The position numbers were made by a program, and so were the translations under genes. From contig JAIPJY010000023.1 of the NCBI GenBank assembly GCA_021733925.1, forward strand, positions 1 to 64,000: a DNA stretch of 64,000 bases, written 5' to 3'. Below, one piece after another: positions 31,664 through 61,292 of this stretch (position 1 is the stretch's first letter; every line of letters starts with the position of its first letter). Origin of the DNA: Prosthecobacter sp. Its GTDB lineage: Bacteria; Verrucomicrobiota; Verrucomicrobiia; Verrucomicrobiales; Verrucomicrobiaceae. The notes beneath the pieces are model-generated. The model was not told where the DNA came from. It saw only the letters and a program-made list of their open reading frames with translations, and made no database searches.

Positions 31664-32154
31664 TTACAATGGTACGCTCCGAACGAAACATGCAGACCGC
31701 AAGCCGGGTCGTCTCAAATCAGTCTTTTGAAGCAAGAATGAATCGAGGTTTAGGCTTTGCTGAACATGATTCAGCACGAATGCTGCCGATTGCTTATGCT
31801 GGACTGGTTGCATATTGCTGCCGAGCTGACTGACCCAGCGCCAGTTCAGGAAACGCAGAGGCTGGGCGTCGGCATATCGGATGATGATGAACATGGGCAT
31901 TAGGGCGAGGTCCTGCAGGGTGTAACGCCATGTTTCGCGAAATGGCACGCTGAGCCCGACTGCAGTTCAATGGCGGACAGCTGATGCACCAGCAGCATGC
32001 GCCATGCGAGTACTGTGGCACAGAGCGTCATCAGCAGGGCAAATTGAGGTCCTCTTCCGGCATGACTGAGAAACACGATCAAGATGGCGCCCGTTCGCAT
32101 GCCATCCAGTGAGGCGATGTGAAACACTCCCTGACGGAATGCTTTAGAATCCAT
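31664..32154 (-). pseudogene. Acyltransferase-3 family remnant (internal deletion and frameshift)
   Basis: From the ATG at 32154 the frame begins ASLDGMRTGAILIVFLSHAG, the hallmark start of membrane O-acyltransferases (acyltransferase-3) that acetylate polysaccharides. It then stops at 31900 after about 84 residues. A second frame (from about 31948) gives FRETWRYTLQDLALMPMFII and RFLNWRWVSQLG, which matches the C-terminal part of the same family. The normal protein has 350-400 residues, so about 200 residues in the middle are missing and the frame changes at the join. The start overlaps the end of the upstream glycosyltransferase gene by 11 bases, as in an intact operon. Confidence 0.75.
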
Positions 32155-33544
32155 GACTGGGGATGAGCATGGGTTGATGCTGGGGTTGCATCGACATGTC
32201 AGAGTCATCTGTCTGGCTGGCGAATCCCATGGGTGTGCCCCAGTCGGGTTTGGACGCACGATGGCCCAGCACCCAGCGATAGACCTCGTGTATCTGCACC
32301 GCCTTGGCCTCCCAGGAGTAAAACTTTCGCACGTGTGCCTGAGCGAGCTCTCCAGCGCTGTGCAGTTGGGCAGGATCCTCCCGCAGTTCCGTCAGCAGTT
32401 GACGGAGCCGTGTGACGATGTCCTCACGCGTGGTCATGGGCAGCACGTAGCCGGCTCCCGAAGGCACCAGTTCGGGCGGGCTCCCGTGATCCAGAACTAT
32501 GGATGGGATTCCCAGCGCCATGGCTTCGAGCACAGCGCCGCCGCCGAACTCACGAATGCTGGGGAAGACAAACAGATCACTCTCGCGCAGGCGAGCGCCG
32601 AGCTGGGCATGTGGGACAAAGCCATCCATGCGCACTCCGCCAGTGATGCCCTTTTTTTGCACCAGGACCTGCAGACGCTCGCGCTCCGGTCCTTCGCCAA
32701 TGATGTCGAGATGAACCGCGTCGCTGCGAACCAGTGGCGCCGCTGCCTCAATGAGCATGTCCACGCCCTTCAGCGCCACGAGGCGGCCGACGAAGGAAAC
32801 ACGGAGTGGCTTGGCTGAATCTGCGGAGGTTGTCGTCCTGGGGGTCAGCGGGATTTTTTCCAGATCGACTGCGTTCTCGGGTATGAAGATGCAACGGCTG
32901 CGAAGATGCGCGGGTATTTCATGCAGGGTCGTTCGAGAAGCGGTGAGAATGGCGTGCGCGGATTCACGTGTTTGCTTCAATTCCGGGGAGAAACGATAAA
33001 ACGCACGCAGCCGTCCTGCACCATCGCGCTCCTGCTGGCGCAAATCATTGAAGCCCTGCGGCCATGGAACGCCACCATTCAAAGGCCCTAGGACGAAGGG
33101 CACGCCAATCTTTTTCAACCGAGGCGCGATCCAGCTTGATGTGGTGGGAGAAAGCGGCAGCAGGCGGTGCACGAGATCAAACTCACCCGCGCGCAGCCTT
33201 GGGCCGAAGGCCTGCCAGAGTTTGCGCTCGAAGAAAGGATAAACGAGATTGGAGAACAAGGCATAGAGGCTCCAGTTGAAACCGCCTTTGCGGCTGAATT
33301 TCGTGGCCAGACTCCAGGAGAGGTGCTGCAGACGGCGGTTGTTGATGGCGGTGAAGTCAGTCCCCTCCACCATGCCGGCGCGAATGAAGTCATCTCGATT
33401 GCGCCACTCGGTGACGATGTGGGCATCGGTCTGTGCGGCGATTGCCTTCGCGCAGGACCAGCCAACCAGTGCCGCGCTGGTGAGTGTCGGATTGGCCGAT
33501 TCGGCGATGATGAGAGGGCGGATGCGACGAGGAGAGGATATCAT
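32144..33544 (-). CDS. Glycosyltransferase, GT4 type
   Basis: A 466-residue GT-B fold transferase. The C-terminal donor-binding half is clear: RVSFVGRLVALKGVDMLIEA, HLDIIGEGPERERL, then EFGGGAVLEAMALGIPSIVL with the E(x7)E motif. The N-terminal half (PRRIRPLIIAESANPTLTSA) is the acceptor domain. Retaining transfer from a nucleotide sugar during exopolysaccharide repeat-unit synthesis is likely; the sugar cannot be predicted. It appears full length. It lies 66 bases after the preceding glycosyltransferase. Confidence 0.9.
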   Translation of the reverse strand: MISSPRRIRPLIIAESANPTLTSAALVGWSCAKAIAAQTDAHIVTEWRNRDDFIRAGMVEGTDFTAINNRRLQHLSWSLATKFSRKGGFNWSLYALFSNLVYPFFERKLWQAFGPRLRAGEFDLVHRLLPLSPTTSSWIAPRLKKIGVPFVLGPLNGGVPWPQGFNDLRQQERDGAGRLRAFYRFSPELKQTRESAHAILTASRTTLHEIPAHLRSRCIFIPENAVDLEKIPLTPRTTTSADSAKPLRVSFVGRLVALKGVDMLIEAAAPLVRSDAVHLDIIGEGPERERLQVLVQKKGITGGVRMDGFVPHAQLGARLRESDLFVFPSIREFGGGAVLEAMALGIPSIVLDHGSPPELVPSGAGYVLPMTTREDIVTRLRQLLTELREDPAQLHSAGELAQAHVRKFYSWEAKAVQIHEVYRWVLGHRASKPDWGTPMGFASQTDDSDMSMQPQHQPMLIPSHGF

Positions 33545-33610
33545 TGTGTGAAACTGCGTTGCGGGTGCTGGAAAATTGCAGGGCTGTTTCGTGCAGAAAC
33601 CTCCCCTCGC

Positions 33611-34768
33611 TCATCCCCCCCAACTACGGGAACCCGTGAAAGGTTTTTCGTAAACTTCCATGACGCGTTTGGCGTTGTCGTTCCAGTTAAAGCGTCTGGC
33701 ATTTTCAAGGCCGGCCGGAATCAGCGCATCCCGTTGTTCACGATGCGTGGCGACATCCAGCAGAGCCTGCGCCATGTCGCCGACATCCTCGGGGTTGATA
33801 AAGCGGGCCGCAGTGCCGACGACTTCACCCAGCGAGCCGCATTTCGAACTGATGACGGGGCAGCCGCAAGCCATGGCCTCGATCGGTGGCAGGCCGAAGC
33901 CTTCAAACAAGGAAGGGTAAACCATGGTGGATGCCGCACGGTACAAGTCAGGAAGGACAGCGTCCTCTACAAAGCCGAGGAAACGAATGTCCTTGGAGTG
34001 GGGCGAATTCCTTGCCGCTGCGTGAATGTGCTCCGCGCCATGCCAGTCGCTGCCTGCCAACACAAGCTGCCAGGGGGAGCCGCTTTTGGATTTGAACTGA
34101 TTGAAGGCCTCGATCAAGCGCGCGTGATTTTTGGCCGGATGCTCGAGCCGCGACACATAAAGAAAGAAGGGTTCATTCAATTGCCAGCGTTGCGCCACCA
34201 TGGATCGGGCAGAAGCATGGTCGCCTGGATTGAAGCGTGCATGGTCAATGCCGTTAAGGATAATGTTCTGCTTCCGCACCGGCACGCCGAAGTAATGCTC
34301 TATGTCCCGCGCCGTGCTTGTGCTCACTGCAATGATGCCATTTTGCCGGCGGGCAAGATGCTTCACGACGACGCGACCGTAGATCATGCGGGCGAGGTCA
34401 TACTTCTTCTTCACATGAAACGGGGCAAGGTCGTGGATCGTCGAGACAAGATGACAGTGTGCGGTGTGCACCATGCGGTGGTAGCTGGGTACATGCAGCA
34501 CATCGATCTGATTCTTGTCCAGCCAGCGCGGCAGCATCTGCTGATGCCACCAGATGTTTCGTACTGCAGGACGCCACTGCTCATCGACAGGTACAATTTC
34601 CATTCTTCCGCGCGCAAACTCAAAGAGTGGCAAATCCTGTGCCAGGGTGAGAATGTGGAATTTGACCACATCCGCATAAGGCATGAGCGCCTTGGTCAGG
34701 GCGAGGACGTATTGCGCCACGCCGGTTTTGCCGCGCTGGATGACGCTGGTGGAGATCGCGATGTTCAT
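33611..34768 (-). CDS. Glycosyltransferase, GT4 type (mannosyltransferase-like)
   Basis: A 385-residue GT-B protein with N-terminal GKTGVAQYVLALTKAL and HDLAPFHVKKKY and C-terminal LYVSRLEHPAKNHARLIEAF, FLGFVEDAVLPDLYRAA and PSLFEGFGLPPIEAMACG. This family (RfaB/WbaZ-like) includes many mannosyltransferases. It is full length. The start overlaps the end of the GT26-STAS gene by 4 bases, so translation is probably coupled. Confidence 0.9.
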   Translation of the reverse strand: MNIAISTSVIQRGKTGVAQYVLALTKALMPYADVVKFHILTLAQDLPLFEFARGRMEIVPVDEQWRPAVRNIWWHQQMLPRWLDKNQIDVLHVPSYHRMVHTAHCHLVSTIHDLAPFHVKKKYDLARMIYGRVVVKHLARRQNGIIAVSTSTARDIEHYFGVPVRKQNIILNGIDHARFNPGDHASARSMVAQRWQLNEPFFLYVSRLEHPAKNHARLIEAFNQFKSKSGSPWQLVLAGSDWHGAEHIHAAARNSPHSKDIRFLGFVEDAVLPDLYRAASTMVYPSLFEGFGLPPIEAMACGCPVISSKCGSLGEVVGTAARFINPEDVGDMAQALLDVATHREQRDALIPAGLENARRFNWNDNAKRVMEVYEKPFTGSRSWGG

Positions 34769-36240
34769 GATGCAAGAAGGTGTTCCAATTGTTCGTGATG
34801 CAGGGATTCGTGAACGACCGGGCTGGCATTGGTGAAGCGCAGGTGAATGTGCTGGCTGGTGGCATGGTCTTTCAAGCGGGCCATCATTCCCAGGCCGCCG
34901 CTGTCCATCAGCCGAACGCCCTTGAGATCAATGACGACTGGATTGCGTGCATCAGCGGCGTTTTGGATGACTCCCAGTGCGCCACGCCAGAGGCCATCCA
35001 CACTGCTGGTGGTGACAGCGCCGCTCCAGTCGAGGTTCAGTGGCTCGGTCTTGCTGTTGGCTGGAGAAACAGGTGCGCTGGCATTCAAGATTTTGTTCAG
35101 CGCCTCTTCACGGCTGGCGGCTTGAGTAAAGATGGAGTTCAGACGTGTCATCTGCAGCAGTTTGAGCAATGCTGGTGAGATGGTGGAAAGGACCAGATGC
35201 TTGCCAGACTGGCGGCATCGCTTTTGCATGCGCATCAACAGGCCGAGTCCGGTGCTGTCGATGAATTGAGCGCCACCGCAGTCGAGGATGATGCCTTCTT
35301 CCGGTCCTTCGAGGCTGTTCATCCACCCCTGCTCAATGAGGCGGACCTCCGCTGCATCCAGCCGCTCCGGACAGAAATGTTCTGCAACGCTCGAAAGCTG
35401 AATGTCAGGGGCTTTGACAGGCGCTGGAATGCGTGGTGTGGCCGGGGTGGTCCGCCTTCCGCCATGTGTCAGCCACCACTGTTTCACAATCGTCAGTCCG
35501 AAAATCACGAAATCCGTAGCGTGGCGTTTAAACAAACGCCGTGGCTCCTGCAGCAGCCGGTACAGCCATTCGAGTCCGATCTTTTGCATCCAGAGAGGTT
35601 CGCGTTGCATGTGGCCCGTGAGAAAGTCGATGGTGGCGCCGAAGCCAATCGTCACTGGTGCACCCGCGCGCTGATAGTTCATGGCGATCCACTTTTCCTG
35701 CTTCGGGCCGCCGAATGACACAAACAGAAGATCTGGATTGGCGGTGTGAATGTCAGCACAGATCGTTGCATGATCCATTTCATGCATTGGTGTAAAGGGC
35801 GGAGACATGACGCCGGCGATTTTGAGCTTGGGATGACGCTCCTGCACCATATGGACCGCCTTTGCCGCCACGTCTTTCTGACCACCTAGAAAATAGACGC
35901 TCCAGTTTTTTTCTTCAGCGATTGCCAAGAGCTTAGGCACGAGATCGGAACCGGCGATGCGCTCTGGCAGCGCATTGCCGAGCCATCGCGAGGCCCAGAC
36001 GAGCGGCAAGCCATCACAGACTACGAGATGTGCATCGATCAAAATGCGGCGCAGATCCTGGTCATACATGGCGAGAGCGGTGAAATCGACGTTCGCTGTG
36101 GCGATGAAATGGGGTTCGCGTGAGGCAATCATGCCAGAGATGGTCTCCAGGGTCTGGCTGGTCGTCACATTGTCGAATGGCACGCCAAGGATGGACAACG
36201 AAGGCCCGCTTCGTGGGGTGACTGCTTCAGTTGTGTTCAT
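34765..36240 (-). CDS. WecG/TagA/CpsF (GT26) glycosyltransferase fused to two STAS domains
   Basis: Residues 1-255 are a GT26 glycosyltransferase, which adds an early sugar to undecaprenyl-linked acceptors: ANVDFTAL, CDGLPLVWASRWLG (75-88), ERIAGSDLVP (93-102), FGGPKQEKW (176-184) and the membrane-associating LEWLYRLLQEPRRLFKRH. A Pro/Thr linker (263-280) leads to a first STAS domain (about 285-385; FIDSTGLG with Thr330 at the phosphorylation position) and a second one (about 400-491; LMDSGGLG with Gly448 there). STAS domains are anti-anti-sigma modules phosphorylated by RsbW-type kinases; such a kinase and a stand-alone STAS gene lie in the same operon. The fusion suggests control of glycan initiation by partner switching, which is inference. 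Confidence 0.9.
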   Translation of the reverse strand: MNTTEAVTPRSGPSLSILGVPFDNVTTSQTLETISGMIASREPHFIATANVDFTALAMYDQDLRRILIDAHLVVCDGLPLVWASRWLGNALPERIAGSDLVPKLLAIAEEKNWSVYFLGGQKDVAAKAVHMVQERHPKLKIAGVMSPPFTPMHEMDHATICADIHTANPDLLFVSFGGPKQEKWIAMNYQRAGAPVTIGFGATIDFLTGHMQREPLWMQKIGLEWLYRLLQEPRRLFKRHATDFVIFGLTIVKQWWLTHGGRRTTPATPRIPAPVKAPDIQLSSVAEHFCPERLDAAEVRLIEQGWMNSLEGPEEGIILDCGGAQFIDSTGLGLLMRMQKRCRQSGKHLVLSTISPALLKLLQMTRLNSIFTQAASREEALNKILNASAPVSPANSKTEPLNLDWSGAVTTSSVDGLWRGALGVIQNAADARNPVVIDLKGVRLMDSGGLGMMARLKDHATSQHIHLRFTNASPVVHESLHHEQLEHLLAS

Positions 36241-37090
36241 GGGAATTCTTTGTCGGCTGGAAATGCTGTGAGTAGTAGCTGCTGAGCTGCTGGCCCAGAC
36301 CTGGCCAGCCGAAGCGCCCGCGACAGGTCTGCATGCCGCGCTTCCCGATTTTCAGGCGCAGTGCATCGTCATGGAGCATGCGCTCTGTGTAGTGCGAGAA
36401 CATTTCGGGTGTGTCAGCCAGCAAGATGTCCGATCCGTGCGCCAGATTCAGGCCCTGCGCACCGATAGTGGTGCTGATGACTGGCGTTCCCATCGCCATG
36501 CTCTCTGGAATTTTGAGCCTGGTGCCGCCGCCGATGCGAAGCAGCACGATTTGTGCCCAAGCACGTCGGTACCATGGTTGCACATCTGGCATGCCACCAG
36601 TCACGGTGACGTCTGGAAGCTCGCCGTAGGCTTTGACTTCTTCGGTGGGTGATTTGCCAACAATCAACACCTGCAGATCCACCCGGCTGCGGTCCACGCT
36701 CAGTGGAATATGCTGATGATCTTTGAGGAAGTTCTGCGCCATTACAATGTCGCATACATGAACCATGTCATATTTATTCTGGTGGAGCATCTCACCGATG
36801 GTGTCGGCCAGCTGAGGCAGCCACCAGTGACGGATCGTCGTTGGCATGGAGTTCAGGAGACGGTTGGGAAACAAACTGGGCCACGGTGGATGCTCGAAGG
36901 GCACGAAGACCACCTTGCGGCAAGAGCTTTCAAAGATGCCGGGGTGCTCCGCATGCCCGCCCTTTTCCGAGAGCGCGATCAAATCGATCGTGTGATCTCT
37001 GGCAAGCTCACGCAGAAGATGAAACACCTGCTGATACGTGCCGCGATCAATCGGGTAGGGGATGTAAGGGTAAACAACCAGGATGTGCAT
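36227..37090 (-). CDS. GT4-type glycosyltransferase with internal deletion
   Basis: A 287-residue product starting MHILVVYPYIPYPIDRGTYQ. The N-terminal domain looks normal through YDMVHVCDIVMAQNFL, and the C-terminal domain is normal from LIVGKSPTEEVKAYGELPDV to RIGGGTRLKIPESMAMGTPV. At about residues 130-140 (LSVDRSRVDLQVLIVGK) the linker and the first strands of the second Rossmann domain, roughly 100 residues, are absent; relatives have about 390-400 residues. The frame is kept. The product is probably inactive. It overlaps the GT26-STAS gene by 14 bases. Confidence 0.75.
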   Translation of the reverse strand: MHILVVYPYIPYPIDRGTYQQVFHLLRELARDHTIDLIALSEKGGHAEHPGIFESSCRKVVFVPFEHPPWPSLFPNRLLNSMPTTIRHWWLPQLADTIGEMLHQNKYDMVHVCDIVMAQNFLKDHQHIPLSVDRSRVDLQVLIVGKSPTEEVKAYGELPDVTVTGGMPDVQPWYRRAWAQIVLLRIGGGTRLKIPESMAMGTPVISTTIGAQGLNLAHGSDILLADTPEMFSHYTERMLHDDALRLKIGKRGMQTCRGRFGWPGLGQQLSSYYSQHFQPTKNSHEHN

Positions 37091-38100
37091 AAGCAGGGTG
37101 GACTTTCTGTACCAAAGCGGAACTCACGACCAAATGCATCGCCCGCAACTGGGGGGGGAATGAGTCCTGATTCAAGCGGTTCCACAGCGCGGTGTACATC
37201 TGGATGGATGACGCAGTTGCCTGGCTTTCGTTCCAAAGCTTGGTCACCGGTTTATGGAGAAGATGCGCAGGCGGATAACGGGTGATACCTGACGGAATAC
37301 CTCGTTTGCGGAGATGGATGAACACGTTTTTCCAAAGTGGTGCTTCAGGGTGCCGGTTGGTCTTGTTTTCCGGGTAATCAACAGGTGTTGACGACTTGAC
37401 TTCCAAGTGACGGCTCTCAAGCTGGAGGAAGATGTTCTGCGCGATCTGTATGAGCGCTGAATGTTCTAGGCGCAATGCGTCAAGCGTCTTGTTGGAGCGT
37501 TGCGGATGGAGTTTAAACTCGACTCCAGCAGCGTGACGAGAAAGAAGCGATGGATCGACTCCGGCAAGTTCCTGAAGCCTGCGGCGGCGTTCAAGGCAAA
37601 GCGTCCAGCCATGGCCAGAACCACGTCATCCAGCGCCAGCTTCGCCTTGGCTAGATTGCGTCCGACGAAGTCTGCTTCGGCGGCGCAGAATTTATCCTGA
37701 GCGAGTCTTTCTTTGGCAAATAACAAATCGGAGCAGCGATTGAGGAGCCGCTGCGTGGCTTCAGGCAAGGGAATGCGGGTGGCGTCGTCATGGTGTTCAC
37801 ATCCAGACCAACCAGTTGCGAAAGCGACTCCGAGCTTGTGCAGGGAGGCCTTGAAAAGACGATCATTGACCAATGTGCTTCCGCCTACGAACACGAAGAA
37901 CTCCATGTCGTTCTAGGACAGGTCCCGGCCGTTTACATGCGGCACGTCGCCTTCGCCGCGTCCATAACCGCCATCAAGGGCGAGACCTTCGAGTTTGCCG
38001 GCCGGGTGATGCGCTCAACGCCTGCGCGCACGTGTGTGCAGGCTTCTGCAAGGTGTTGTTCCAGGCTGCTGCTGCCATCGATGGTGAAGCGAGCACTCAT
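37047..38100 (-). pseudogene. Nucleotidyltransferase-like protein, broken into three frames
   Basis: The ATG at 38100 begins MSARFTIDGSSSLEQHLAEA but this frame stops at 37933. A second frame carries LEGLALDGGYGRGEG, a nucleotidyltransferase-like G-rich loop, then a TAG at 37913-37915 followed at once by NDMEFFVFVGG and on to 37466 (HHDDATRIPLPEATQRLLNR, then RNLAKAKLALDDVVLAMAG). A third frame (37475-37047) continues with LESRHLEVKSSTPVDYPENK and ALWNRLNQ. Read together they give one protein of about 330 residues with two frameshifts, one nonsense codon and probably a deletion. I recall such proteins in verrucomicrobial polysaccharide loci; their function is unknown. Confidence 0.6.
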
Positions 38101-39320
38101 TCTGGAAGGGATTCACGCAGGCATTCTTCAACCTGGGCAACGATTGGCGCCATGGCAAAACGCTCATGTGCTTCCTTGTGGCCCGTCTGGGCGATGTTCG
38201 TGCGCAGGTGGTCTTCGGTTTGCAGCAGCAGGATGCGCTCTGCCAGCTGAGTGGCGGCTCCGGCGTCATAAGTGACTGCGTTCTGACCGTGGCGGAACAG
38301 TTCGCGTCTGTCGCCTGTCATGGTGCCGATCACCGGCAGCCCACAGGCCATGGCTTCAAGTGGTGTGAGGGCAAAGGGCTCCTCACATTCGGAGGTGAAG
38401 AGCAGGGCATCATGTGCGCGATATACGTCAGGCATTTCTGCGGGTGTTGCGCTGTGCCATGAGACCGGGAGGGAGTTTCCCGCAGCGAAGTTTTTCAGCA
38501 TGGTCACGTAGGCATCATCACCTTTGCCATAGACATGCAGTTCGCCTGCAAAGGAGTTTTTGATGAGAAGCAAGGCACGTAGTGCTGTGAGAATGCCTTT
38601 GTCTTCGGCCAGGCGTCCCACCCAGAGCCAGTTTCTAGGGGGGCGGGTCACGGGTGTTCCCTGGAAGTGCTTTGTATCCACCGGACAGTGAATGACGCCG
38701 CCATGCTGCACCTTGTGGCCCTGCACTGCCGTGAGCTCGCGCAGGCGGGCGCTGGAGAAATAGAGCCGGTTGAAGTGGATTTCGGAGATGGGGTTGGTTG
38801 GTGCGATCACATCGCAGCGCCGACGGATTCCTAACAGCGTCCAAAGCGCACGATGAATGCGTGATGCGAATGATCCCTGCCTGCGATTCCACCAGTTGAG
38901 CCAGACGTCACCGGTGAGACTGCGCGAAATCCAGTTGTCGCTGACATTATAGACTGTCGGTACAGCACTCCGTTGCAGCGTGAGGCAGAGCGATTTTGAC
39001 AGTCCGTCCATGGACCAGACATGGACGACATCTGGCTGATGCACCATGAGCGACTCACGCAGGGTTTGATTGTTGTGCAGTTCCAGATGCTTAAGTGCAC
39101 GCAATTTCAGCCAGGGGTGCCCGTAACAGCCGTGAAGGTGCAGGCTTCGCTCGATATTGGGTTCCAAGACGGGCTGGTTGTCTTGCAGGCCATGATTGGA
39201 AGTGAGCACTTGCACTTCATGGCCGCGAAGCCGCAGCGCCTCGGTGATGGCGGCGCAGCGAAGTTCGTAAGCACCGACGTAGTGAGGTGGGTAAAGATTG
39301 GTAAGAACAAGAATTTTCAT
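38097..39320 (-). CDS. Glycosyltransferase, GT4 type
   Basis: A 407-residue protein starting MKILVLTNLYPPHYVGAYEL, a typical GT4 acceptor-domain start with the glycine-rich loop. The donor half contains WLWVGRLAEDKGILTALRAL, LHVYGKGDDAYV, the DALLFTSECEEPFALTPLEA segment with the E(x7)E motif, and MACGLPVIGT. Appears intact. The end overlaps the start of the nucleotidyltransferase-like pseudogene by 4 bases. Part of the minus-strand exopolysaccharide operon. Confidence 0.9.
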   Translation of the reverse strand: MKILVLTNLYPPHYVGAYELRCAAITEALRLRGHEVQVLTSNHGLQDNQPVLEPNIERSLHLHGCYGHPWLKLRALKHLELHNNQTLRESLMVHQPDVVHVWSMDGLSKSLCLTLQRSAVPTVYNVSDNWISRSLTGDVWLNWWNRRQGSFASRIHRALWTLLGIRRRCDVIAPTNPISEIHFNRLYFSSARLRELTAVQGHKVQHGGVIHCPVDTKHFQGTPVTRPPRNWLWVGRLAEDKGILTALRALLLIKNSFAGELHVYGKGDDAYVTMLKNFAAGNSLPVSWHSATPAEMPDVYRAHDALLFTSECEEPFALTPLEAMACGLPVIGTMTGDRRELFRHGQNAVTYDAGAATQLAERILLLQTEDHLRTNIAQTGHKEAHERFAMAPIVAQVEECLRESLPE

Positions 39321-39324
39321 GGAG

Positions 39325-39561
39325 TCAATTCCACCTGCTGCTGCTCACGCGGCCAGGATGGTAATCTTGAAGTGTGATTTGTATGAAGTGCGCAGGATTG
39401 GCGGCACGGGGCAGCTCCTGTGAGCCGTCAGTCGAACCATTATCAATGAGAGTCAGCTCTCGGTTCTGCCTGTTTTGTGCTGCCAGAGCCGGTAGTGTTT
39501 CCTTCAGCGTCCAGGCTTCATTGAAGGATCGCATGACGATGCCGGTGAGAGGATCACTCAT
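39325..39561 (-). pseudogene. GT2 family glycosyltransferase, N-terminal fragment
   Basis: Only 78 residues remain: GIVMRSFNEAWTLKETLPAL and TLIDNGSTDGSQEL are the nucleotide-binding start of a GT-A (GT2) transferase, which normally has 240-300 residues. The DxD motif and acceptor domain are missing, and the frame ends 4 bases before the next gene begins. Its start overlaps the upstream GT4 gene by 4 bases, so this was a normal operon member that lost about 200 residues. Confidence 0.75.
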
Positions 39562-40856
39562 GACAGTTTAGCGGCGAATTTAACAGGCTGGCGGTGGAGT
39601 ATAGTTTTTGAGCCTTTGTGCTTTTTCGCTTCGACCAATTCCTCATACACACGGGCCACGCGACCGGCGACGGTTGGCGCATCATATTCAGCTCGCACAA
39701 GCTCACGAGCTTCCATGCTGATGTGGCGGTGCAGCTTGTTATTCAGCATGAGGGTGTCGATGGCGGAGTGAAAATCGGCGCTTTGATCGAGTTTGTAGAG
39801 CAGGCCGGTTCGGCCATGTTCAATCAGCGAAGCAGGACCGGACGTGCGCGAGGAAAGCACTGGAGTGCCTGCAGCCCAGGCTTCCAGGATGACGAGGCCG
39901 AATGGTTCGGCAGTTGAACAAAGGACCAAGAGACGCGAGGACTGTACGAGGCCGATCATCTCAGCGCAACCTGATTCCAGCCCTCCTGTGAGCAGGACAT
40001 CGTTGATCAGGCCCAGGCGGGCGATTTCACGATGCAGCTCTTCGACGACTGATGGTGTGGTCCCCGCTCCAATGAGCACGAGCATGGCACGCGGATGTCG
40101 GCGTTTGATTGCTGGCAGCTGTCGCACAAGCCATGGCAGGTTTTTGGCGGGATCGAGCCGGGCGACTGTGACGATGAGATCACGGCCGGCGATTTGCGGG
40201 TAGGCTTTGAGTGCGGCAGCGCGGCAGTCGGCACCGTACTGAGCGGCCGGAACGGAGTGTGGCTGAACGATGATGCGCTGGCGGGGATAGATATTTTGCA
40301 GGAGGGCTGCTTCACGCGGATTGCATGAGAAGATGGCATCCGTGTTTTGCAGTACATGGCGGCTACGGACAAGCGCATCAAGAGCCTTGCCCCACTCCAA
40401 GCCACCTTTCAGTGGAGCCGTAAGCCTGGCATTCACTTCATCGGGCATGTCGTGAGCGCCGCCATGCAGTGTGACTACATGTGGCACGCCGCGTGATCTT
40501 GCCGCCATCAGGCTGATGCCTGCAATCCGGTTGAGCACATGCGAGTGCATCACATCCGCACCGCTGTCGCGGAGTTGCCAGAATAGATCAAATGAAAACA
40601 GATTGCCACCCCATGAAAGCAACGCCTCACGTTGTGCGGACGAAATCCCAATCACAGGAACAAAGGCGCTATAGCGCTGAATTTTGGGGCTGGCATCGCG
40701 CAGAGGATCGATGTTGTCGAGGCTGGCATTTTGTGGGGCATGCACCGCTGAGGAAATGCCGTGCATCTGCAGCCCTTGAACAAGGCGTTGCACGGCAGTC
40801 TCGGTTCCACCCCATTGTGCTGGATCGTATTTGCGGAGAATGTGGGATGCTTGCAT
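39558..40856 (-). CDS. Glycosyltransferase, GT4 type
   Basis: A 432-residue GT-B transferase. The start (MQASHILRKYDPAQWGGTET) has the acceptor-domain loop WGGTE. VVTLHGGAHDMP, IVTVARLDPAKNLPWLVRQL and LVLCSTAEPFGLVILEAWAA with the E(x7)E-type motif complete the fold. Intact length. It begins 6 bases after the flippase ends and overlaps the GT2 fragment by 4 bases. Confidence 0.9.
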   Translation of the reverse strand: MQASHILRKYDPAQWGGTETAVQRLVQGLQMHGISSAVHAPQNASLDNIDPLRDASPKIQRYSAFVPVIGISSAQREALLSWGGNLFSFDLFWQLRDSGADVMHSHVLNRIAGISLMAARSRGVPHVVTLHGGAHDMPDEVNARLTAPLKGGLEWGKALDALVRSRHVLQNTDAIFSCNPREAALLQNIYPRQRIIVQPHSVPAAQYGADCRAAALKAYPQIAGRDLIVTVARLDPAKNLPWLVRQLPAIKRRHPRAMLVLIGAGTTPSVVEELHREIARLGLINDVLLTGGLESGCAEMIGLVQSSRLLVLCSTAEPFGLVILEAWAAGTPVLSSRTSGPASLIEHGRTGLLYKLDQSADFHSAIDTLMLNNKLHRHISMEARELVRAEYDAPTVAGRVARVYEELVEAKKHKGSKTILHRQPVKFAAKLS

Positions 40857-40862
40857 AAGAGA

Positions 40863-41768
40863 TCACGCAGCTTGAAGCACGGGTGAAAATTTCTTGAAGG
40901 GAGAGGGAAGGCGTGAACGGAGCCACTGGCGCTCTGACGCCGTCAACGCCCCAGACCACAGGCAAAGCAGCGAAGTGAGGCCGCCTGCGCTTCCCATCAG
41001 GAAAATGCGGATCGAGGTGTTCTCGATCTGCAAATCTGGAAATAGCAGAGGTGCGCCCAAAGCAAAGATGGAGAAGCTCATCGTTGCACGCATGATGGAC
41101 TTTGAAAACATGCCTGGTAGCAGTTTCGCCTCCGGCATGTGACGCAGGGCGAAGAAGGCTGAGACAAGGTCCGGAGCCAGGGCAAAGAGCAATGCTGTGA
41201 GCATTATGGCCAGCAGGCTCCAGCCCGCATAAACGGCCCAGGCAACGACGGCGAGTCGCATGAGCATGGCCATCGTGATGATGTTGTTGATGGTGCTGAT
41301 GCGCTGCTGACTTCGCAGGATATCCGGGATAATGGCCAGTGGAAAAGCAAGGCCAATGGCGGCGAAGAATATGATCTGCACGATGCGAATCTCCACATGA
41401 TTGGCAGAGGAAACTCCAAGGGAACGAACGATTTCATCGTCTCCGAGTGCCACTGTGCCCGCCATGAGTGCGGCCACACCGAGGTAAAAGAACAGAATCG
41501 AGCTCAGCACCTGGCTGAGCTTGTGCCATTCACCGGTGAACGACAGTTCGGCGACACGTTTTTGCGCGGCAAAGCCAAAACCAAAATCCAACAGGATGCC
41601 GTATCCAAAAACACTCCAAAACAGAGACCAGAAGCCAAATGACTCGCGTGGCAGCGCCTGGTATAACAACCGAAAAGTCACCAGTCCGACAACAATGCCG
41701 ACAAAAGTGCGCAGGTAGTTCGAGAGTGCGCTGCTCAAGATAGGTTGTTTGACGCAGTCGCAGGTCAT
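40863..41768 (-). CDS. Polysaccharide flippase (Wzx/MATE-like), C-terminal half deleted
   Basis: A 301-residue membrane protein. The first 240 residues are a normal Wzx/PST start: LSNYLRTFVGIVVGLVTFRL, FGFWSLFWSVFGYGILLDFG (conserved in O-antigen flippases) and five or six further helices. After MRATMSFSIFALG it jumps to a short final segment ending LRSRLPSPFKKF. Full-length relatives have 450-500 residues, so about 150-200 residues (helices 7-11) appear to be missing in frame. The protein would probably not transport. It lies 34 bases after the frameshifted sensor gene. Confidence 0.8.
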   Translation of the reverse strand: MTCDCVKQPILSSALSNYLRTFVGIVVGLVTFRLLYQALPRESFGFWSLFWSVFGYGILLDFGFGFAAQKRVAELSFTGEWHKLSQVLSSILFFYLGVAALMAGTVALGDDEIVRSLGVSSANHVEIRIVQIIFFAAIGLAFPLAIIPDILRSQQRISTINNIITMAMLMRLAVVAWAVYAGWSLLAIMLTALLFALAPDLVSAFFALRHMPEAKLLPGMFSKSIMRATMSFSIFALGAPLLFPDLQIENTSIRIFLMGSAGGLTSLLCLWSGALTASERQWLRSRLPSPFKKFSPVLQAA

Positions 41769-41802
41769 CGCGAGAGCTAAAGTCTCGTGGCGAGTCCAGT
41801 GC

Positions 41803-42593
41803 TCAACAATCCCCGCAGCTGCGGGGAGGAGGGTGTATCATGGCTTCCGCGCGCGAAGGGCGGTTGTTCATCAAAGACGAGAGCAAGCTGAGTTCAGGCT
41901 GCCAACGCCTGGGTGAAGGTGCGGCGATTTTGATCTCAGGGCGTTCCGGCGCTTTTTCCACCAGGCGATGGATATGCGGAATGGGAGTGAGGTCTTCTGG
42001 GACATTGGGCGAGTTGCTGAAGAGTGCCGCATAGCTCTGCGGATCATGTGGATGACAGCCATGCATGGCGCGCATGGGTCGTTCCCCCATGTAGCTGGAA
42101 ATGATCAACACGCCTTCTTTGACGAGGAAAATGAGTTCGCCAAAACGTCCGCGAGTAAAGTGAGCGAGGAAACGCTGCAGTTCTTCATTTTCCATGATGC
42201 GGCCTTCAAGAACGCCCTGCAAGAGGGCGGTGATCTTCTGACGCGCCACTTCGTTGAAGAACCAGAGAGCACTCCCGCGAGATCGCCTCCGCTTTCGAGA
42301 GGATGCGCCAGTCCGCATATGTGCTCACCGGCTTTTCGCAGCGGATCTGAGGCGGCAAAGTCGGTGTTTCCATCAAACCATTGATCCTGACGTGTGACTG
42401 CAGCACGGACTTCAACGACGTCTGCGGTGCGGAGGTCCAAGAGCGAATCCCAGGCGATGGTGGAGGGCACACCGCCTACGATGGGGAGCCTGCCGGCTTC
42501 GGTGTCAGCCATGCGCAGCAATAGAAAATCTGCGCCGGACAGTTCACGCAGTTCTTCGAGCCATCGCGGCCGGCTCCACATCATTGCCAGCAT
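41803..42593 (-). pseudogene. GAF-like sensor protein with frameshift
   Basis: The frame from the ATG at 42593 (SRPRWLEELRELSGADFLLL to HPLESGGDLAGVL) resembles a GAF-type ligand-binding domain. At about 42270, in the run GTGCTCTCTGG on the minus strand, the sense continues in another frame as LWFFNEVARQKITALLQGVL and FTRGRFGELIFLVKEGVLII, running to 41803. The joined protein would have about 260 residues. The GAF assignment is tentative. It follows the RsbW-type kinase gene, so a sensory input to that switch is a fair guess. The frameshift may be real or a sequencing error. Confidence 0.55.
41811..41826. promoter_or_regulatory. 16-bp perfect palindrome upstream of the flippase gene
   Basis: CCCCGCAGCTGCGGGG lies 43 bases upstream of the flippase start. 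A 14-of-16 match, CCCCGCAGATGTGGGG, lies at 43409-43424 next to the STAS gene start. Both are candidate operator or RNA-hairpin sites; function is not shown. Confidence 0.35.
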
Positions 42594-42642
42594 CGGCGAT
42601 GAGCCGGAAGATGTTGGCGAGGGTTTCTTAACAAGAGGCGAC

Positions 42643-43119
42643 CTATGCGGTCATGAGTTCGAGCGTCGCCTCGGTGTCTTCACTGGCTTGTGGGGGAGAT
42701 TTGCGCCGCGTCTTCAGGCAGAGCACATTGTGCCCTTGTCCGTGCAAGTAAGATACGTGATCGGTGAGTGAACTGATGATGAAGAGCCCGCGCCCATGCT
42801 CGCGCTCGTCGTCTTCGGGAAGTTCCACATTGTCAGGCCATGCAAAGCCACTGGTGTGATCGGTGATGCGGATTTCGATGACGTCCGCAGTCAGCGCCGC
42901 TTCGATGCGAACTGTGTGCCGGGCCTGTTCGGGGGTGGCATAGAGCACCGCGTTGTTCGCTGCTTCTGCCAGCACCAGCTCCCACTGCTGGCACTCGTCC
43001 TCCCGGATCTGCCGATCCAGCAGCCATTGCATGGCAGAGCGTACGGCATCGCGGGCATCTTCCAGAGTTACTGGAAAATCGAGCCGAAAGACATCGAACT
43101 GCTGCTGCGGAAGCGACAT
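42643..43119 (-). CDS. RsbW/SpoIIAB-type anti-sigma kinase (HATPase_c_2)
   Basis: A 158-residue serine kinase of the GHKL fold, which binds a sigma factor or other partner and phosphorylates STAS proteins. The N-box is ELVLAEAANNAVLYA (E52, N55, N56), the G1 box is DHTSGF (87-92) and the G2 box is HGRGLFII (108-115). The C-terminal tail of about 25 residues is acidic. It lies 6 bases after the STAS gene and immediately before the GAF-like gene: a compact partner-switching operon inside the exopolysaccharide cluster. No sigma factor gene is adjacent. Confidence 0.92.
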   Translation of the reverse strand: MSLPQQQFDVFRLDFPVTLEDARDAVRSAMQWLLDRQIREDECQQWELVLAEAANNAVLYATPEQARHTVRIEAALTADVIEIRITDHTSGFAWPDNVELPEDDEREHGRGLFIISSLTDHVSYLHGQGHNVLCLKTRRKSPPQASEDTEATLELMTA

Positions 43120-43125
43120 GAGCGA

Positions 43126-43461
43126 TCAATTATGGATAATTTCGAAAACGCGATGAAGTCTTGTCAGTTCGATCAACTGGCAGACGGCGGAAGAAGGATT
43201 GATCAGTTTCAGGCTGGCCCCTCGGGAGCGGAGGTTTTTGTTCAGTGTCAGCAACTCACCGAGGCCGGAGCTGTCGATGTCACGTGTCTTGGAGAAATCA
43301 ATGCCATTCCTGAGAGCGGGGAGATCTTCGATGGCTTGGATGAGAAGGCGGTACATGCAATGCGCAAAAGTGTTTTGCAAACATCGCCGTTCACGTCGGA
43401 CAGTCATTCCCCGCAGATGTGGGGGAATAGTCCCCTGCCTCCACATCTCATGGGCTCGCAC
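43126..43461 (-). CDS. STAS-domain anti-anti-sigma protein
   Basis: A 111-residue protein whose C-terminal 70 residues are a clear STAS domain: GIDFSKTRDIDSSGLGELLT with Ser65 as the phosphorylatable residue, then LRSRGASLKLINPSSAVCQL and LTRLHRVFEI. The first 40 residues do not look like the usual first strands of a STAS fold, so the N-terminus may be altered. An ATG at 43407 (MTVRRER) is an alternative start. The gene precedes its likely kinase by 6 bases, the usual order of antagonist and anti-sigma genes. Confidence 0.88.
   Translation of the reverse strand: MRAHEMWRQGTIPPHLRGMTVRRERRCLQNTFAHCMYRLLIQAIEDLPALRNGIDFSKTRDIDSSGLGELLTLNKNLRSRGASLKLINPSSAVCQLIELTRLHRVFEIIHN
43409..43424. promoter_or_regulatory. 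Imperfect 16-bp palindrome at the STAS gene start
   Basis: CCCCGCAGATGTGGGG matches the palindrome at 41811-41826 at 14 of 16 positions and ends 1 base upstream of the ATG at 43407. It could bind a protein or fold in the mRNA to mask the start. This is inferred from similarity and position. Confidence 0.35.
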
Positions 43462-43469
43462 TTCTGAAT

Positions 43470-44384
43470 CTACGGAGGAGACCCATCCTCACGTGGCACC
43501 AATCGAAGTTGGTGGATGTGCAGGCTGGCCGCAGGTTTTCCAGCCGCCAGAAAGACAACCAACTGGTGGACATGCCGGGGGGGATCAGTGCTTGGCCATT
43601 GAATTTGAATTCGGTGGTGGCCCGGCATCATCCACGCTCCAGCTCGGAGGCGTGGACCCACTTCATTGTTCAAGTCGAGCCGCAAGCCCACTTCGACGGC
43701 CTCCGAAGCTTCCAGGGTTCCATCTATCTCCAGGCTATCGAAGGAAGTCCAGTCACGACCACGGGCATCCAGATGAGCGCTGGCCGCCCTTTGAGCGGTG
43801 CGTTCGAGGATCATATGGCCATGCCGACTGATTTGCCCACTTGAGGAATCCTCCTCTGGCTCCAAGGACCAAAAAAAGCCGCCTAGTTCTCCGGTGAAAT
43901 CAGTCAATACAGGGAACTGTCTGTCTGCAGCCTGCTTTGCCATCAGCACCTGTGCTGTTAGCACCAAGGGTGGCGATAGAAGTATGAGCATGGCCAGAAG
44001 TCGTGCGATCACACGCAACCCCATCGAATGAATCATGCCTGTAACAATCCAGAGAGTGCCTGCGACAATCCCTGCCACTCCCCACATGAAGTCGCCTATG
44101 TCTGCGGTGCGGTGACACCAGGGCTGAACAATTTCAATCAAGGCGGCAAGCAGGATCGCTGACAAAACAGCCGACAATAAGCTGCGCTTATTCACGGCAG
44201 CTGTGTTGCGGAACAAGCCCTCCAACGCCACACAGCAGATTCCCATCATGGGGACATGCATGTGGTTGATGAGCTCTCCTCGCCAGCCTGCAGACCACCC
44301 CTCAGGCAGCGGCAGCAGCATGGCGACGCCAATCCCAACAAGCAGGGAAGACAGAATCAAAGAACGCAAAGATAGTCGCTTCAA
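43470..44384 (-). CDS. VanZ-like membrane protein with C-terminal beta domain
   Basis: A 304-residue protein. The N-terminal half (to about 150) is VanZ-like, with four to five helices and the conserved ALIEIVQPWCHRTADIGDFM region. The C-terminal half is an extracytoplasmic beta-rich module: FTGELGGFFWSLEPEE, SFDSLEIDGTLEASEAVEVG and HQLVVFLAAGKPAASLHIHQ, resembling carbohydrate-binding folds. It is the first gene of the minus-strand exopolysaccharide operon and divergent from the YdcF-like gene, 118 bases away. A broken second copy lies at 46850-47455. Confidence 0.8.
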   Translation of the reverse strand: MKRLSLRSLILSSLLVGIGVAMLLPLPEGWSAGWRGELINHMHVPMMGICCVALEGLFRNTAAVNKRSLLSAVLSAILLAALIEIVQPWCHRTADIGDFMWGVAGIVAGTLWIVTGMIHSMGLRVIARLLAMLILLSPPLVLTAQVLMAKQAADRQFPVLTDFTGELGGFFWSLEPEEDSSSGQISRHGHMILERTAQRAASAHLDARGRDWTSFDSLEIDGTLEASEAVEVGLRLDLNNEVGPRLRAGAWMMPGHHRIQIQWPSTDPPRHVHQLVVFLAAGKPAASLHIHQLRLVPREDGSPP

Positions 44385-44502
44385 GCTGGGGATTTATAAA
44401 GAGGAGTGTTTCTGAGATAAACGCGAAGTGAATACCTGGCAATTGCCATGATGCCGAGGTGATGAATGGCTTTGAACAACTGTATCCTAGGCGAAGCCTG
44501 GG

Positions 44503-45336
44503 ATGAACATTTTTGCCGCTGCGGTTGCAGAACAACCTATTGTGATCCTACTCTTCCAAGTGATCACGCTTTTAAAAACTGTCCTGCAATTCACTCAGCC
44601 GTTGTTTTTGATCTGGCTACTTCTGGGAATTTGGCTGCTGAGGATGCTTTGGAATCGCCGAAGTGTCAGCTTGTGGATGCCTGCCACGTCTTGGGTGCTG
44701 CTCACGGTTATCTCATGCACGCCAATAGCCTCTGTACTTCTGGCAGACCTTGAGAACCAGGTTCCCAAGGTCCAGATGAACCAACTCCCTGCTGCGGATG
44801 CGATTCTATGCCTCGGCGGCGGCGCTGAACCATCCTTGTCAGAGCCCACGGGATTTCATCTGAAAGTTGGAGCGGACCGACTGAGCACCGCTCTTACGCT
44901 TGCGGCAGCTGGTAAGGCTCCACTGCTGATCCTGGGCGGCGGTGGGTATCCACATGAGGGACTGACGTTTTCTGAGGCGGACGCGGTTCGTGACTACCTC
45001 GCAGATCACGTCCATCTCAACATCCAATTGCACAGCATTGGGGTATGCAGTGACACGCATGATGAAACTCTCAAGGTTGCGGCGCTGATGAAGCAGCGCG
45101 GATTAAAGCGACTTCTGCTCGTCACCAGCGCGAGCCACATGCCACGTGCCGCGGCCGTCTTCCGCAAGACCGACGTCCAGGTGATACCGGTTCCCTGCAA
45201 CTATTCCAGCAGCCTCAATCACGTGGGTGATCTTCACTGGTTTCATTGGCCCAGCCATCATGGGTTTGAGATTTTCGCCTTCTGGATTCACGAGGTTATT
45301 GGCCATTATGTGTATCTCTTGCGAGGGTGGATTTGA
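44503..45336 (+). CDS. YdcF/ElyC-like (DUF218) membrane protein
   Basis: A 277-residue protein with two N-terminal membrane helices (about 15-55 and 60-80) and a DUF218 domain: AILCLGGG, GADRLSTALTLAAAGKAPLL then ILGGGG, SDTHDETLKVAALMKQRGLK and LVTSASHMPRAAAVFRK. ElyC and YdcF relatives act in envelope glycan and undecaprenyl-phosphate metabolism. It is divergently paired with the VanZ-like gene. The same pair recurs as remnants at 46.9-47.8 kb. Confidence 0.88.
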   Translation: MNIFAAAVAEQPIVILLFQVITLLKTVLQFTQPLFLIWLLLGIWLLRMLWNRRSVSLWMPATSWVLLTVISCTPIASVLLADLENQVPKVQMNQLPAADAILCLGGGAEPSLSEPTGFHLKVGADRLSTALTLAAAGKAPLLILGGGGYPHEGLTFSEADAVRDYLADHVHLNIQLHSIGVCSDTHDETLKVAALMKQRGLKRLLLVTSASHMPRAAAVFRKTDVQVIPVPCNYSSSLNHVGDLHWFHWPSHHGFEIFAFWIHEVIGHYVYLLRGWI

Positions 45337-46849: not shown

Positions 46850-47455
46850 ATGGAGAATCCTGCTTATTGGGCGATCCCCGACTCTTGTAAACCAGCAGAC
46901 GGTATTTTTTTTGTGCCGGGCGGCCCGCCAGGCGCGCTGACTGCAGCAGCAAGGGGGGCTTGTTCTGGCGTGGGAGCAGGCGCAGGCGATGGATCTGCAG
47001 CCGGGCCGCCGCAGGATTGGCCGCCAGGAAGACCGCCAATTGATGTACACGCGGTGTTGGGGCGTCCTTGTTCCAGTAAATTTGAATTTGACTGGTTCCC
47101 GGCTGCATCCAACCGCCATCCCGCAGGCGGTTGGCTCCATATGCGCCCAGATCCAGCCTGACACCGACTTCGACGGCTGACGCTGCCTGCAACGTGCCGG
47201 CTATTTCCAAACCGGCGAAGGCGCTCCAGTCACGATCCAGGGTGTCCAGGTGAATGCTGGAAGGATGGCCGGCGTCTCGTGCCAGAAGCAGAGCATCAGG
47301 ACCCGGGCCAGCTTGGGCGGGCTCGATGGTCCAGAGCGGATGCGAGCGGTCAGCCAGACCAGCGTTGGCGCCAGCACGCAGGCCACGGCCAGCAGCCGGG
47401 TGGCATGCCGCAGGGCTGCCGCCTGCATTCCGAGGCCGATGCGGCGGGCGATTTT
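46850..47455 (-). pseudogene. Remnant of a second VanZ-like/beta-domain gene
   Basis: Minus-strand reading gives pieces in two frames that parallel the intact gene at 43470-44384. About 47443-47340 (RIGLGMQAAALRHATRLLAV) matches its last membrane region. From about 47260 another frame gives DRDWSAFAGLEIAGTLQAAS, AVEVGVRLDL and HQLAVFLAANPAAARLQIHR, closely matching the C-terminal module. The VanZ helices are gone. The fragment ends abruptly at about 47455, where a plus-strand YdcF remnant begins. Confidence 0.7.
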
Positions 47456-47464
47456 CTGCGCGCG

Positions 47465-47794
47465 CATGTTGGCCTGAAAACCGACATCCACAGCCTGGGA
47501 ATCTGCAGTGACACCCATGATGAAGCCGTCAAAGTGGCCGATTTGATGCAGAAGCGGGGTCTCACGCAGCTGCTGCTCGTGACCAGCGCCAGCCATATGC
47601 CGCGCTCCCTGGCGGTATTTCGCAAAGCAGGCATCAACGCCATTCCGGTGCCGTGCAACTACACCAGCAGTCTGAACCGCGTGGGAGGGCGGTACTGGCT
47701 GCATCTGCCCCATGTGCAAGGATTCGAGAGCTTCAATGGCTGGCTGCACGAGATCGTCGGCTACTGGGTCTATCGCTGGCGTGGGTGGGTTTGA
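47465..47794 (+). pseudogene. Remnant of a second YdcF-like (DUF218) gene
   Basis: From about 47465 the plus strand encodes the C-terminal 110 residues of a DUF218 protein (HSLGICSDTHDEAVKVADLM, LLLVTSASHMPRSLAVFRKA, VGYWVYRWRGWV), aligned throughout with the last part of the intact gene at 44503-45336. The N-terminal 165 residues, including both membrane helices, are absent. It abuts the VanZ remnant head to head, so one deletion removed both N-terminal halves and the shared promoter. Confidence 0.75.
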
Positions 47795-60800: not shown

Positions 60801-61292
60801 ACCTTTGCAGGAATCATTGGTGGCACGGGCGGTCTAATCAAGGATGGAGCGAGCACGCAGATCCTCACCGGCACGAACACCTTTACCGGTACGGTGACCG
60901 TCAACAACGGAACGCTGGCGGCCAACGGTCCGAACTCCATCAATTCAGCCCTGGGTTCGGCCAGTTCCATCGTCATCAACAATGGCGGAACGATCACGGT
61001 GGGTGGTGACAACTCGTTTACCGGCGGGCTAGATCCGACAGGGGCAGGAAAGTTCACGCAGATCAATGCGGGCGGTCTGCTCAGCAACGCGGGTTCTTCC
61101 ACCAACCATCTTTTTCATCTGGTGATGAACGGAGGGACGCTCTCGGCCACGACGGCTAACTCTTACTTTGGCAATTGGAATTTCGACTATGGGGTCGCCA
61201 CGCTTGGCAACGGGTCCACTTCGCTGATCACCGGTGGCAATGCCACGCTGACGCAAATTGGGGGGCACAATTTTCGACATTGGCGCGGGTGA
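51858..61292 (+). CDS. Giant exported repeat protein, central part (autotransporter-associated strands)
   Basis: Same frame as the preceding segment, resumed after TAG; the GTG at 51858 is only a nominal start. 3144 residues: a beta-sandwich region, cadherin-like repeats (about 52260-52910), one fibronectin-like segment (about 52920-53220), then from about 53230 dozens of autotransporter-associated beta-strand repeats of the type [17 protein letters not shown] followed by TTVSAGTLQ. Such repeats form long beta-helices on secreted or surface proteins. There are no cysteine-rich or catalytic domains. The frame ends at a TGA (61290-61292) caused by one extra base near 61271, because the expected sequence continues in the next frame. 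Confidence 0.85.
56214..56900 (+). repeat. Internal duplication, copy A1 (second copy 60183-60860)
   Basis: About 680 bases, encoding [20 protein letters not shown] through [19 protein letters not shown], recur at 60183-60860 with an estimated 90 percent nucleotide identity by eye. Long identical runs (for example GGCAGTGC-free stretches of the AATGTGGTGGGCGCGTTGCC type) show a fairly recent duplication or gene conversion. Confidence 0.8.
56886..57620 (+). repeat. Internal duplication, copy B1 (second copy 58885-59605)
   Basis: About 720 bases, from [20 protein letters not shown] to [20 protein letters not shown], recur about 2.0 kb downstream with only scattered substitutions. The pair is in direct orientation. 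In both copies the duplicated block begins at the AGCAACGGCTACAGCGGCGC segment. Confidence 0.8.
57590..58040 (+). repeat. Internal duplication, copy C1 (second copy 61810-62270)
   Basis: About 450 bases, encoding [20 protein letters not shown] through [16 protein letters not shown], recur 4.2 kb downstream, in the part of the gene beyond the frameshift. Synonymous changes dominate. Confidence 0.75.
58075..58470 (+). repeat. Internal duplication, copy D1 (second copy 61405-61800)
   Basis: About 395 bases, encoding [20 protein letters not shown] through [20 protein letters not shown], recur 3.3 kb downstream. In the first location block C precedes block D, in the second block D precedes block C, so the order has been shuffled. 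Confidence 0.75.

Follow-up and report, generated by a model that had tools for sequence, protein, structure and literature searches.

A WecG/TagA-family glycosyltransferase fused to two STAS domains, a candidate direct target of partner switching in a verrucomicrobial polysaccharide cluster

Introduction

Why would a glycosyltransferase of polysaccharide synthesis end in two STAS domains, and could these domains allow the enzyme itself to be switched? This question is raised by a gene of Prosthecobacter sp. that encodes a WecG/TagA (GT26)-STAS-STAS fusion protein of 491 amino acids. The gene lies at 34765..36240 of the window, by which we mean the whole 64,000-nucleotide stretch of contig JAIPJY010000023.1 analyzed here; it is on the minus strand, as are all features below whose coordinates are joined by two dots. 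GT26 enzymes, STAS domains, and partner switching are all known kinds, and we found no description of the WecG-STAS-STAS form or of its linkage to kinase and PP2C genes in the titles and abstract beginnings that searches of the open-licence PMC literature listed. Judging from sequence, we give a direct tie of the enzyme to a kinase and a phosphatase an even chance of being the best explanation of the fusion.

Results

Architecture and conservation of the fusion

The original prediction described the gene product as a WecG/TagA/CpsF (GT26) enzyme with two STAS domains at residues 285-491, and both profile matches and structure comparison agreed with this description. The protein matched PF03808 with 210.3 bits (curated cut-off 27.4) and has the GT-E fold of the family, and a STAS profile match and a STAS fold were each found twice. 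The GT26 catalytic domain with its C-terminal appendage helices (residues 13-262; 35455..36204) is followed by a disordered linker under weaker selection (residues 263-281; 35398..35454; predicted local distance difference test score, pLDDT, < 50), the first STAS domain (STAS1, residues 285-388; 35077..35388), and the second (STAS2, residues 397-491; 34768..35052). STAS2 alone gave weak matches against PDB; its fold comparison was nonetheless clear. While TagA of Thermoanaerobacter italicus (PDB 5wb4, 5wfg, 7mpk, and 7n41) ends after the appendage, the fusion has about 230 more residues, which make up the linker and the two STAS domains. It also has the active-site residues and appendage arginines of GT26: T48, N50, D76, R94, Q181, E182, R228, and R235 correspond to T37, N39, D65, R83, Q167, E168, R214, and R221 of TagA, respectively, and are identical in 29 of 29 aligned rows, with the exception of Q181 (28 of 29). 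From its family membership, the fusion is probably the transferase that commits a lipid-linked sugar to a surface polysaccharide.

A scan of genome contigs, which is biased to close relatives because its query patterns were taken from the window protein, gave 32 named loci; by local profiles, STAS stood behind WecG in 30 of them, with two STAS domains in 26. The contigs were labeled Verrucomicrobia, Opitutaceae and related names, Chloroflexi/Anaerolineae, and Acidobacteria, the last with one STAS. STAS was likewise present in 28 of the 29 best other genomes (L003-L031, re-examined as L064-L092). A chance or mis-joined open reading frame was rejected on these counts. The domain search proposed with the original prediction thus found the architecture conserved; as far as sequence tells, it is retained in several bacterial groups, which suggests that a kinase and a phosphatase encoded nearby may switch the enzyme itself. 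When 387 genomes from the window's phylum were searched, at least 194 had a match at E ≤ 1e-20, and many of the matches listed span the glycosyltransferase only; G187 and G199, the other two listed genomes of the window's genus, gave no match. The C-terminal part is STAS in the relatives that carry it, but STAS-less relatives exist, among them the GT4-WecG protein of the same-genus genome G190. In that genome, a STAS-receiver fusion of 233 amino acids is encoded about 18 kilobases (kb) from the GT4-WecG gene (L129:7933-8634).

Both STAS domains are under purifying selection. Among the five closest genes, the ratio of nonsynonymous to synonymous substitution rates (dN/dS) was 0.06-0.15 for STAS1, 0.09-0.34 for STAS2, 0.08-0.16 for the glycosyltransferase, and 0.11-0.79 for the linker; the low values of STAS1 and STAS2 therefore indicate that both domains are maintained.

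Phospho-acceptor residues

The phosphorylation positions had been placed at Thr330 of STAS1, Gly448 of STAS2, and Ser65 of a stand-alone STAS protein in the same cluster (DSSGLG; 43126..43461). In HMMER alignments of STAS1 with SpoIIAA chains, Ser329 stood opposite residue 58 (Ser) of 1th8_B and opposite Ala of 1tid_B, which we take to be the deliberate S58A form of SpoIIAA. According to the excerpted text of PMC10120452, the phosphorylation site of SypA is Ser56 with Ser57 as its neighbor, and the primer table places Ser56 directly after Asp. Because of the SpoIIAA alignment and this arrangement in SypA, we rejected Thr330, Gly448, and Ser65, each one residue off, and assigned the predicted acceptors to Ser329 (codon 35254..35256), Ser447 (codon 34900..34902, followed by that of Gly448), and Ser64 of the stand-alone protein. 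Ser329 and Ser447 both directly follow Asp, as in a STAS acceptor, and each starts a helix in the predicted structure. Both positions are well conserved, with Ser at 329 in 24 of 29 aligned rows and at 447 in 25 of 29 (three lack STAS2). The claim that one domain is switchable through Thr and the other permanently unphosphorylated through Gly used the wrong residue and was not supported.

Gly448 takes the position of SypA Ser57, which is described in the same excerpt as stabilizing the phosphorylation event; the S57A substitution severely decreased the ability of SypA to restore biofilms (PMC10120452). Gly448 is present in the window protein and in each of its four nearest relatives (5 of 5), but in none of the other 24 rows (three without STAS2), which have Thr in 10, Ser in 8, Ala in 5, and one gap. 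The same five proteins have the STAS2 loop GAVT, whereas Glu or Asp replaces that Ala in 18 of the 24 others (GE(I/V)T). Because of Gly448 and the missing loop acid, STAS2 of the window clade may be an atypical substrate, yet it has the acceptor Ser447. Some asymmetry between STAS1 and STAS2 is possible for reasons such as the GAVT loop, other than Thr330 and Gly448. In STAS2 of the more distant rows (24 with a letter), D-S-[A/S] was mostly retained.

Kinase, phosphatase, and stand-alone STAS genes near the fusion

The co-occurrence with an RsbW-type kinase on which the original prediction relied was borne out, as such kinases are commoner near fusions than near STAS-less WecG genes. In a close relative (L034; fusion 82% identical), a stand-alone STAS of 97 amino acids is followed by a kinase-GAF-PP2C protein of 593 amino acids about 7-8 kb from the fusion. 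Kinase-GAF-PP2C proteins were also found in L066 and L093, a single receiver-PP2C-kinase protein in L068 and L069, and separate PP2C and kinase proteins with a stand-alone STAS in L057 and L058. A kinase-plus-PP2C protein lies within a few kb of a stand-alone STAS in L034, L043, L066, L068, L069, L072, L076, and L093; together with L057 and L058, these loci encode an RsbW-type kinase, PP2C, and a small STAS protein near the fusion (local profiles, confirmed by Pfam in part). The kinase-PP2C gene adjoins a response-regulator gene in G039 and G158, and a phosphodiesterase gene in G039 and L034.

By local profiles, a kinase was found in the examined stretch of 7 of 32 fused loci (window and L064-L118) and of none of 24 STAS-less loci, and a small STAS protein in 12 of 32 and 1 of 24, respectively; the single STAS-less case (L095, a GT4-WecG protein) has the stand-alone STAS about 3 kb off. 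On the named contigs, several of which are short or have truncated flanks that lower the counts, a kinase was present at 5 of 30 fused loci and at neither of the other two. Among the matches listed, with positions read by hand, an RsbW-type kinase lay within about 35 kb of the gene in 12 of 31 fused genomes (G000, G038, G039, G048, G140, G158, G172, G221, G243, G276, G309, and G313) compared with none of 20 STAS-less WecG controls, and within the same class in 8 of 9 compared with 0 of 16; the Fisher p values (8.9e-4 and 8.3e-6, respectively) come from counts that are not independent, because the genomes are related. Every genome searched had a HATPase_c_2 match of some kind, and weak kinase matches outside the examined stretches may be missed in fused and control genomes alike. 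Four one-STAS genomes (G039, G048, G158, and G172) have the kinase 15-33 kb away, among the matches listed. G122 was rejected as a linked genome; its kinase match is about 51 kb off, close to a STAS protein that matches RsbRD_N weakly.

Other proteins with C-terminal STAS domains were seen beside fusion genes. On a Chloroflexi-labeled contig, a PHP-domain protein with a C-terminal STAS (L057:5619-6728) is encoded beside the WecG-STAS-STAS, PP2C, and kinase genes, and proteins of 414 and 362 amino acids with a C-terminal STAS and no other Pfam match (L073:10866-12110 and L088:7877-8965, respectively) adjoin WecG-STAS-STAS genes.

State of the cluster in the window

The neighbors of the fusion gene are GT4 transferases, a flippase-family gene, a response regulator, and a UDP-sugar dehydrogenase. 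One GT4 gene (33611..34768) overlaps the end of the fusion gene with its start, and another lies upstream (36227..37090) and lacks about 357 base pairs (bp) of its middle relative to L032. The flippase-family gene (40863..41768) encodes 301 amino acids compared with 522 in L032-L034; the family scored over its cut-off in L034 but not in the shortened window copy. Farther along are a C-terminal remnant of a phosphodiesterase-family gene (41914..42318), which in L034 comes after the kinase-phosphatase gene, and a remnant of the middle of the kinase-GAF-PP2C protein (42264..42640; about residues 160-292 of the L034 protein, in two frames). The RsbW-type kinase domain (HATPase_c_2; 42643..43119) represents the N-terminal part of the 593-amino-acid L034 protein, but in the window the reading frame stops after the kinase. 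No PP2C part follows (about 2.1 kb missing relative to L034), and the stand-alone STAS matches the intact L034 protein over about 43129-43302 only, so that its N-terminal half looks broken; an intact set of kinase, PP2C, and small STAS was thus not found at this locus. The stand-alone STAS had no phmmer match in PDB at E ≤ 0.001, and Pfam gave nothing for L034:8757-9821 or window 37466-37906.

Overall, at least six polysaccharide-cluster genes at 31800-43470 are short by about 0.1-2.1 kb compared with close relatives. Relative to L032-L034, the gaps amount to about 357 bp in the GT4 gene, 112 bp in the next gene, 638 bp in a GT2 gene, 665 bp in the flippase gene, 2.1 kb in the kinase-GAF-PP2C region, and 177 and 397 bp in an acyltransferase gene. 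The alignments flanking the junctions overlap by 4-9 bases at 31949, 36671, and 37798 (3 of 7) and are 1-10 bases apart at 32046, 39340, 41059, and 42266 (4 of 7).

The window copy could accordingly be a relic, an open fusion gene left without its switch or a complete pathway in a decaying cluster. This reading concerns the window only, is compatible with any of the others, and seems to us possible but somewhat improbable. The shortened or broken homologues of the kinase-phosphatase, stand-alone STAS, phosphodiesterase, flippase, GT4, GT2, and acyltransferase genes speak for it, while genes at about 24-31 kb align with those of relatives over nearly full length. However, no deletion affects the fusion; its length is intact, as are the lengths of the glycosyltransferase genes at 32144-34768. 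Across the parts of the fusion, the comparison of the window with L032 gave a dN/dS of 0.07-0.12, and a local assembly fault could be responsible instead. The local switch has probably been broken in this genome, unless the stretch was assembled wrongly. Because the local module is broken, the switch was probably lost or is served by other copies. The genome has two PP2C matches, on contigs C87 and C40, and the one on C40 is joined to a kinase domain and lies beside a STAS protein. This second partner-switching set consists of a GAF-PP2C-kinase protein (L119:8980-10857) and a STAS protein of 116 amino acids (L119:13956-14306).

Elsewhere in the window, a VanZ-like gene (below the cut-off; 43485-44405 and again 46956-47354) and a DUF218 gene (44524-45333 and again 47399-47791) occur twice as a pair, the second copy being partial; in L035, a single protein of each kind matches at both positions. 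A repetitive open reading frame of 3144 amino acids at 51858-61292 resembles, by eye, an autotransporter-type passenger protein.

Discussion

Alternatives to a direct switch

The STAS pair might be a scaffold that tethers the transferase to other glycosyltransferases or membrane proteins, phosphorylation being irrelevant in many members. STAS has a comparable tethering role as MlaB in the Mla transporter. We consider this unlikely: most of the aligned members retain the acceptor Ser, and genes for a kinase, a phosphatase, and a stand-alone STAS occur more often in the vicinity of fused enzymes than of STAS-less ones. Still less probable is the reverse direction, in which the STAS domains signal the enzyme's state and sequester the kinase as an anti-anti-sigma unit, so that the enzyme controls a partner-switching pathway with a sigma factor or a SypA-like output: STAS proteins classically bind and sequester RsbW-type kinases (PMC8256260, in excerpt) and a stand-alone STAS and a kinase are co-encoded in part of the family, but a scan of cluster proteins, which did not cover every gene, found no sigma-factor family, and even in distant groups STAS has stayed fused to an enzyme whose active site is conserved.

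Several observations, besides the dependence among the linkage counts, weigh against a direct switch. The three-part module is not in the examined stretch of most other fused loci, and 19 of the 31 fused genomes have no such kinase within 35 kb among the matches listed, including all eight f30 genomes with the single-contig G383 among them. The loci with one STAS have no kinase in the examined stretch (0 of 15), and 3 of the 20 control genomes lack a HATPase_c_2 match over the cut-off. Neither the window nor L035 has a PP2C beside the kinase; the L035 kinase has 173 amino acids, and no stand-alone STAS was detected there either. Finally, STAS2 of the window clade combines the lack of the loop acid with Gly448, and STAS1 of 33 more distant rows has Asp in 11 and Gly in 5, though Ser in 29.

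A possible mechanism

The architecture, the folds, the conserved active site and acceptor serines, the purifying selection, and the linkage of kinase, phosphatase, and STAS genes in part of the family are observations; kinase binding, phosphorylation, and the direction of control are what we infer. TagA needs its C-terminal appendage for activity, and this appendage is proposed to fold onto the active site on meeting the membrane (PMC6493773, in excerpt). In a direct switch, the fusion would be the gatekeeper of the exopolysaccharide cluster, adding a sugar early to the lipid-linked precursor, as its family suggests, and its activity would be set post-translationally by the two STAS domains in cis, directly behind the membrane-activated appendage. 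Phosphorylation of these domains at Ser329 and Ser447, or their release, would fall to a SypE-like kinase and a PP2C phosphatase encoded alongside, together with the stand-alone STAS. Kinase binding or phosphorylation would determine how the appendage docks, whether the enzyme associates with the membrane, or how it assembles, and PP2C would reverse the effect; sugar commitment would then follow the signal sensed by a GAF or receiver domain without new transcription. For comparison, SypA is active when unphosphorylated, according to the excerpt of PMC4517449.

Relation to known systems

The closest parallels, each known to us from excerpts of the papers cited, share parts of this design. SypA and SypE of Vibrio fischeri comprise a STAS protein with the acceptor Ser after Asp and a serine kinase/phosphatase response regulator at a polysaccharide locus, and L068 and L069 resemble SypE in having kinase, receiver, and PP2C domains in a single protein. 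However, SypA consists of one free STAS domain, and its target is described as unknown (PMC10120452), whereas here STAS is joined to an early-acting transferase; SypE differs in domain order, and in L034 GAF replaces the receiver. HfsJ of Caulobacter is a WecG/TagA-family enzyme controlled post-translationally via its C-terminus, but its inhibitor HfiA is a separate protein of 68 residues, and the excerpt mentions no STAS or kinase/phosphatase switch (PMC3900383). The product of all4160, which is required for the heterocyst envelope polysaccharide of Anabaena (PMC4390870), is described in a review as a glycosyltransferase with a STAS domain; according to that review, its STAS is N-terminal, and no two-STAS arrangement is mentioned in the excerpt (PMC8256260). 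HmpU/V/W of Nostoc punctiforme form a partner-switching module at a motility and polysaccharide locus, also with a downstream target described as unknown, but the excerpt does not describe the STAS as fused to an enzyme (PMC8256260).

We tentatively regard the fusion, at somewhat less than even odds, as an uncharacterized design: through STAS domains in cis, phosphorylation by a partner-switching system would directly affect the glycosyltransferase that makes the committing step of a surface polysaccharide. The GT26 step would then be a candidate for the target still missing for free STAS proteins such as SypA and HmpV. STAS/kinase/phosphatase modules occupy polysaccharide loci where, as the excerpts put it for these two proteins, the downstream target is unknown. 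The fusion names a concrete target, the transferase that probably commits the lipid-linked precursor, and a concrete place, the appendage that activates TagA, and the question becomes testable with two proteins and a few point mutants.
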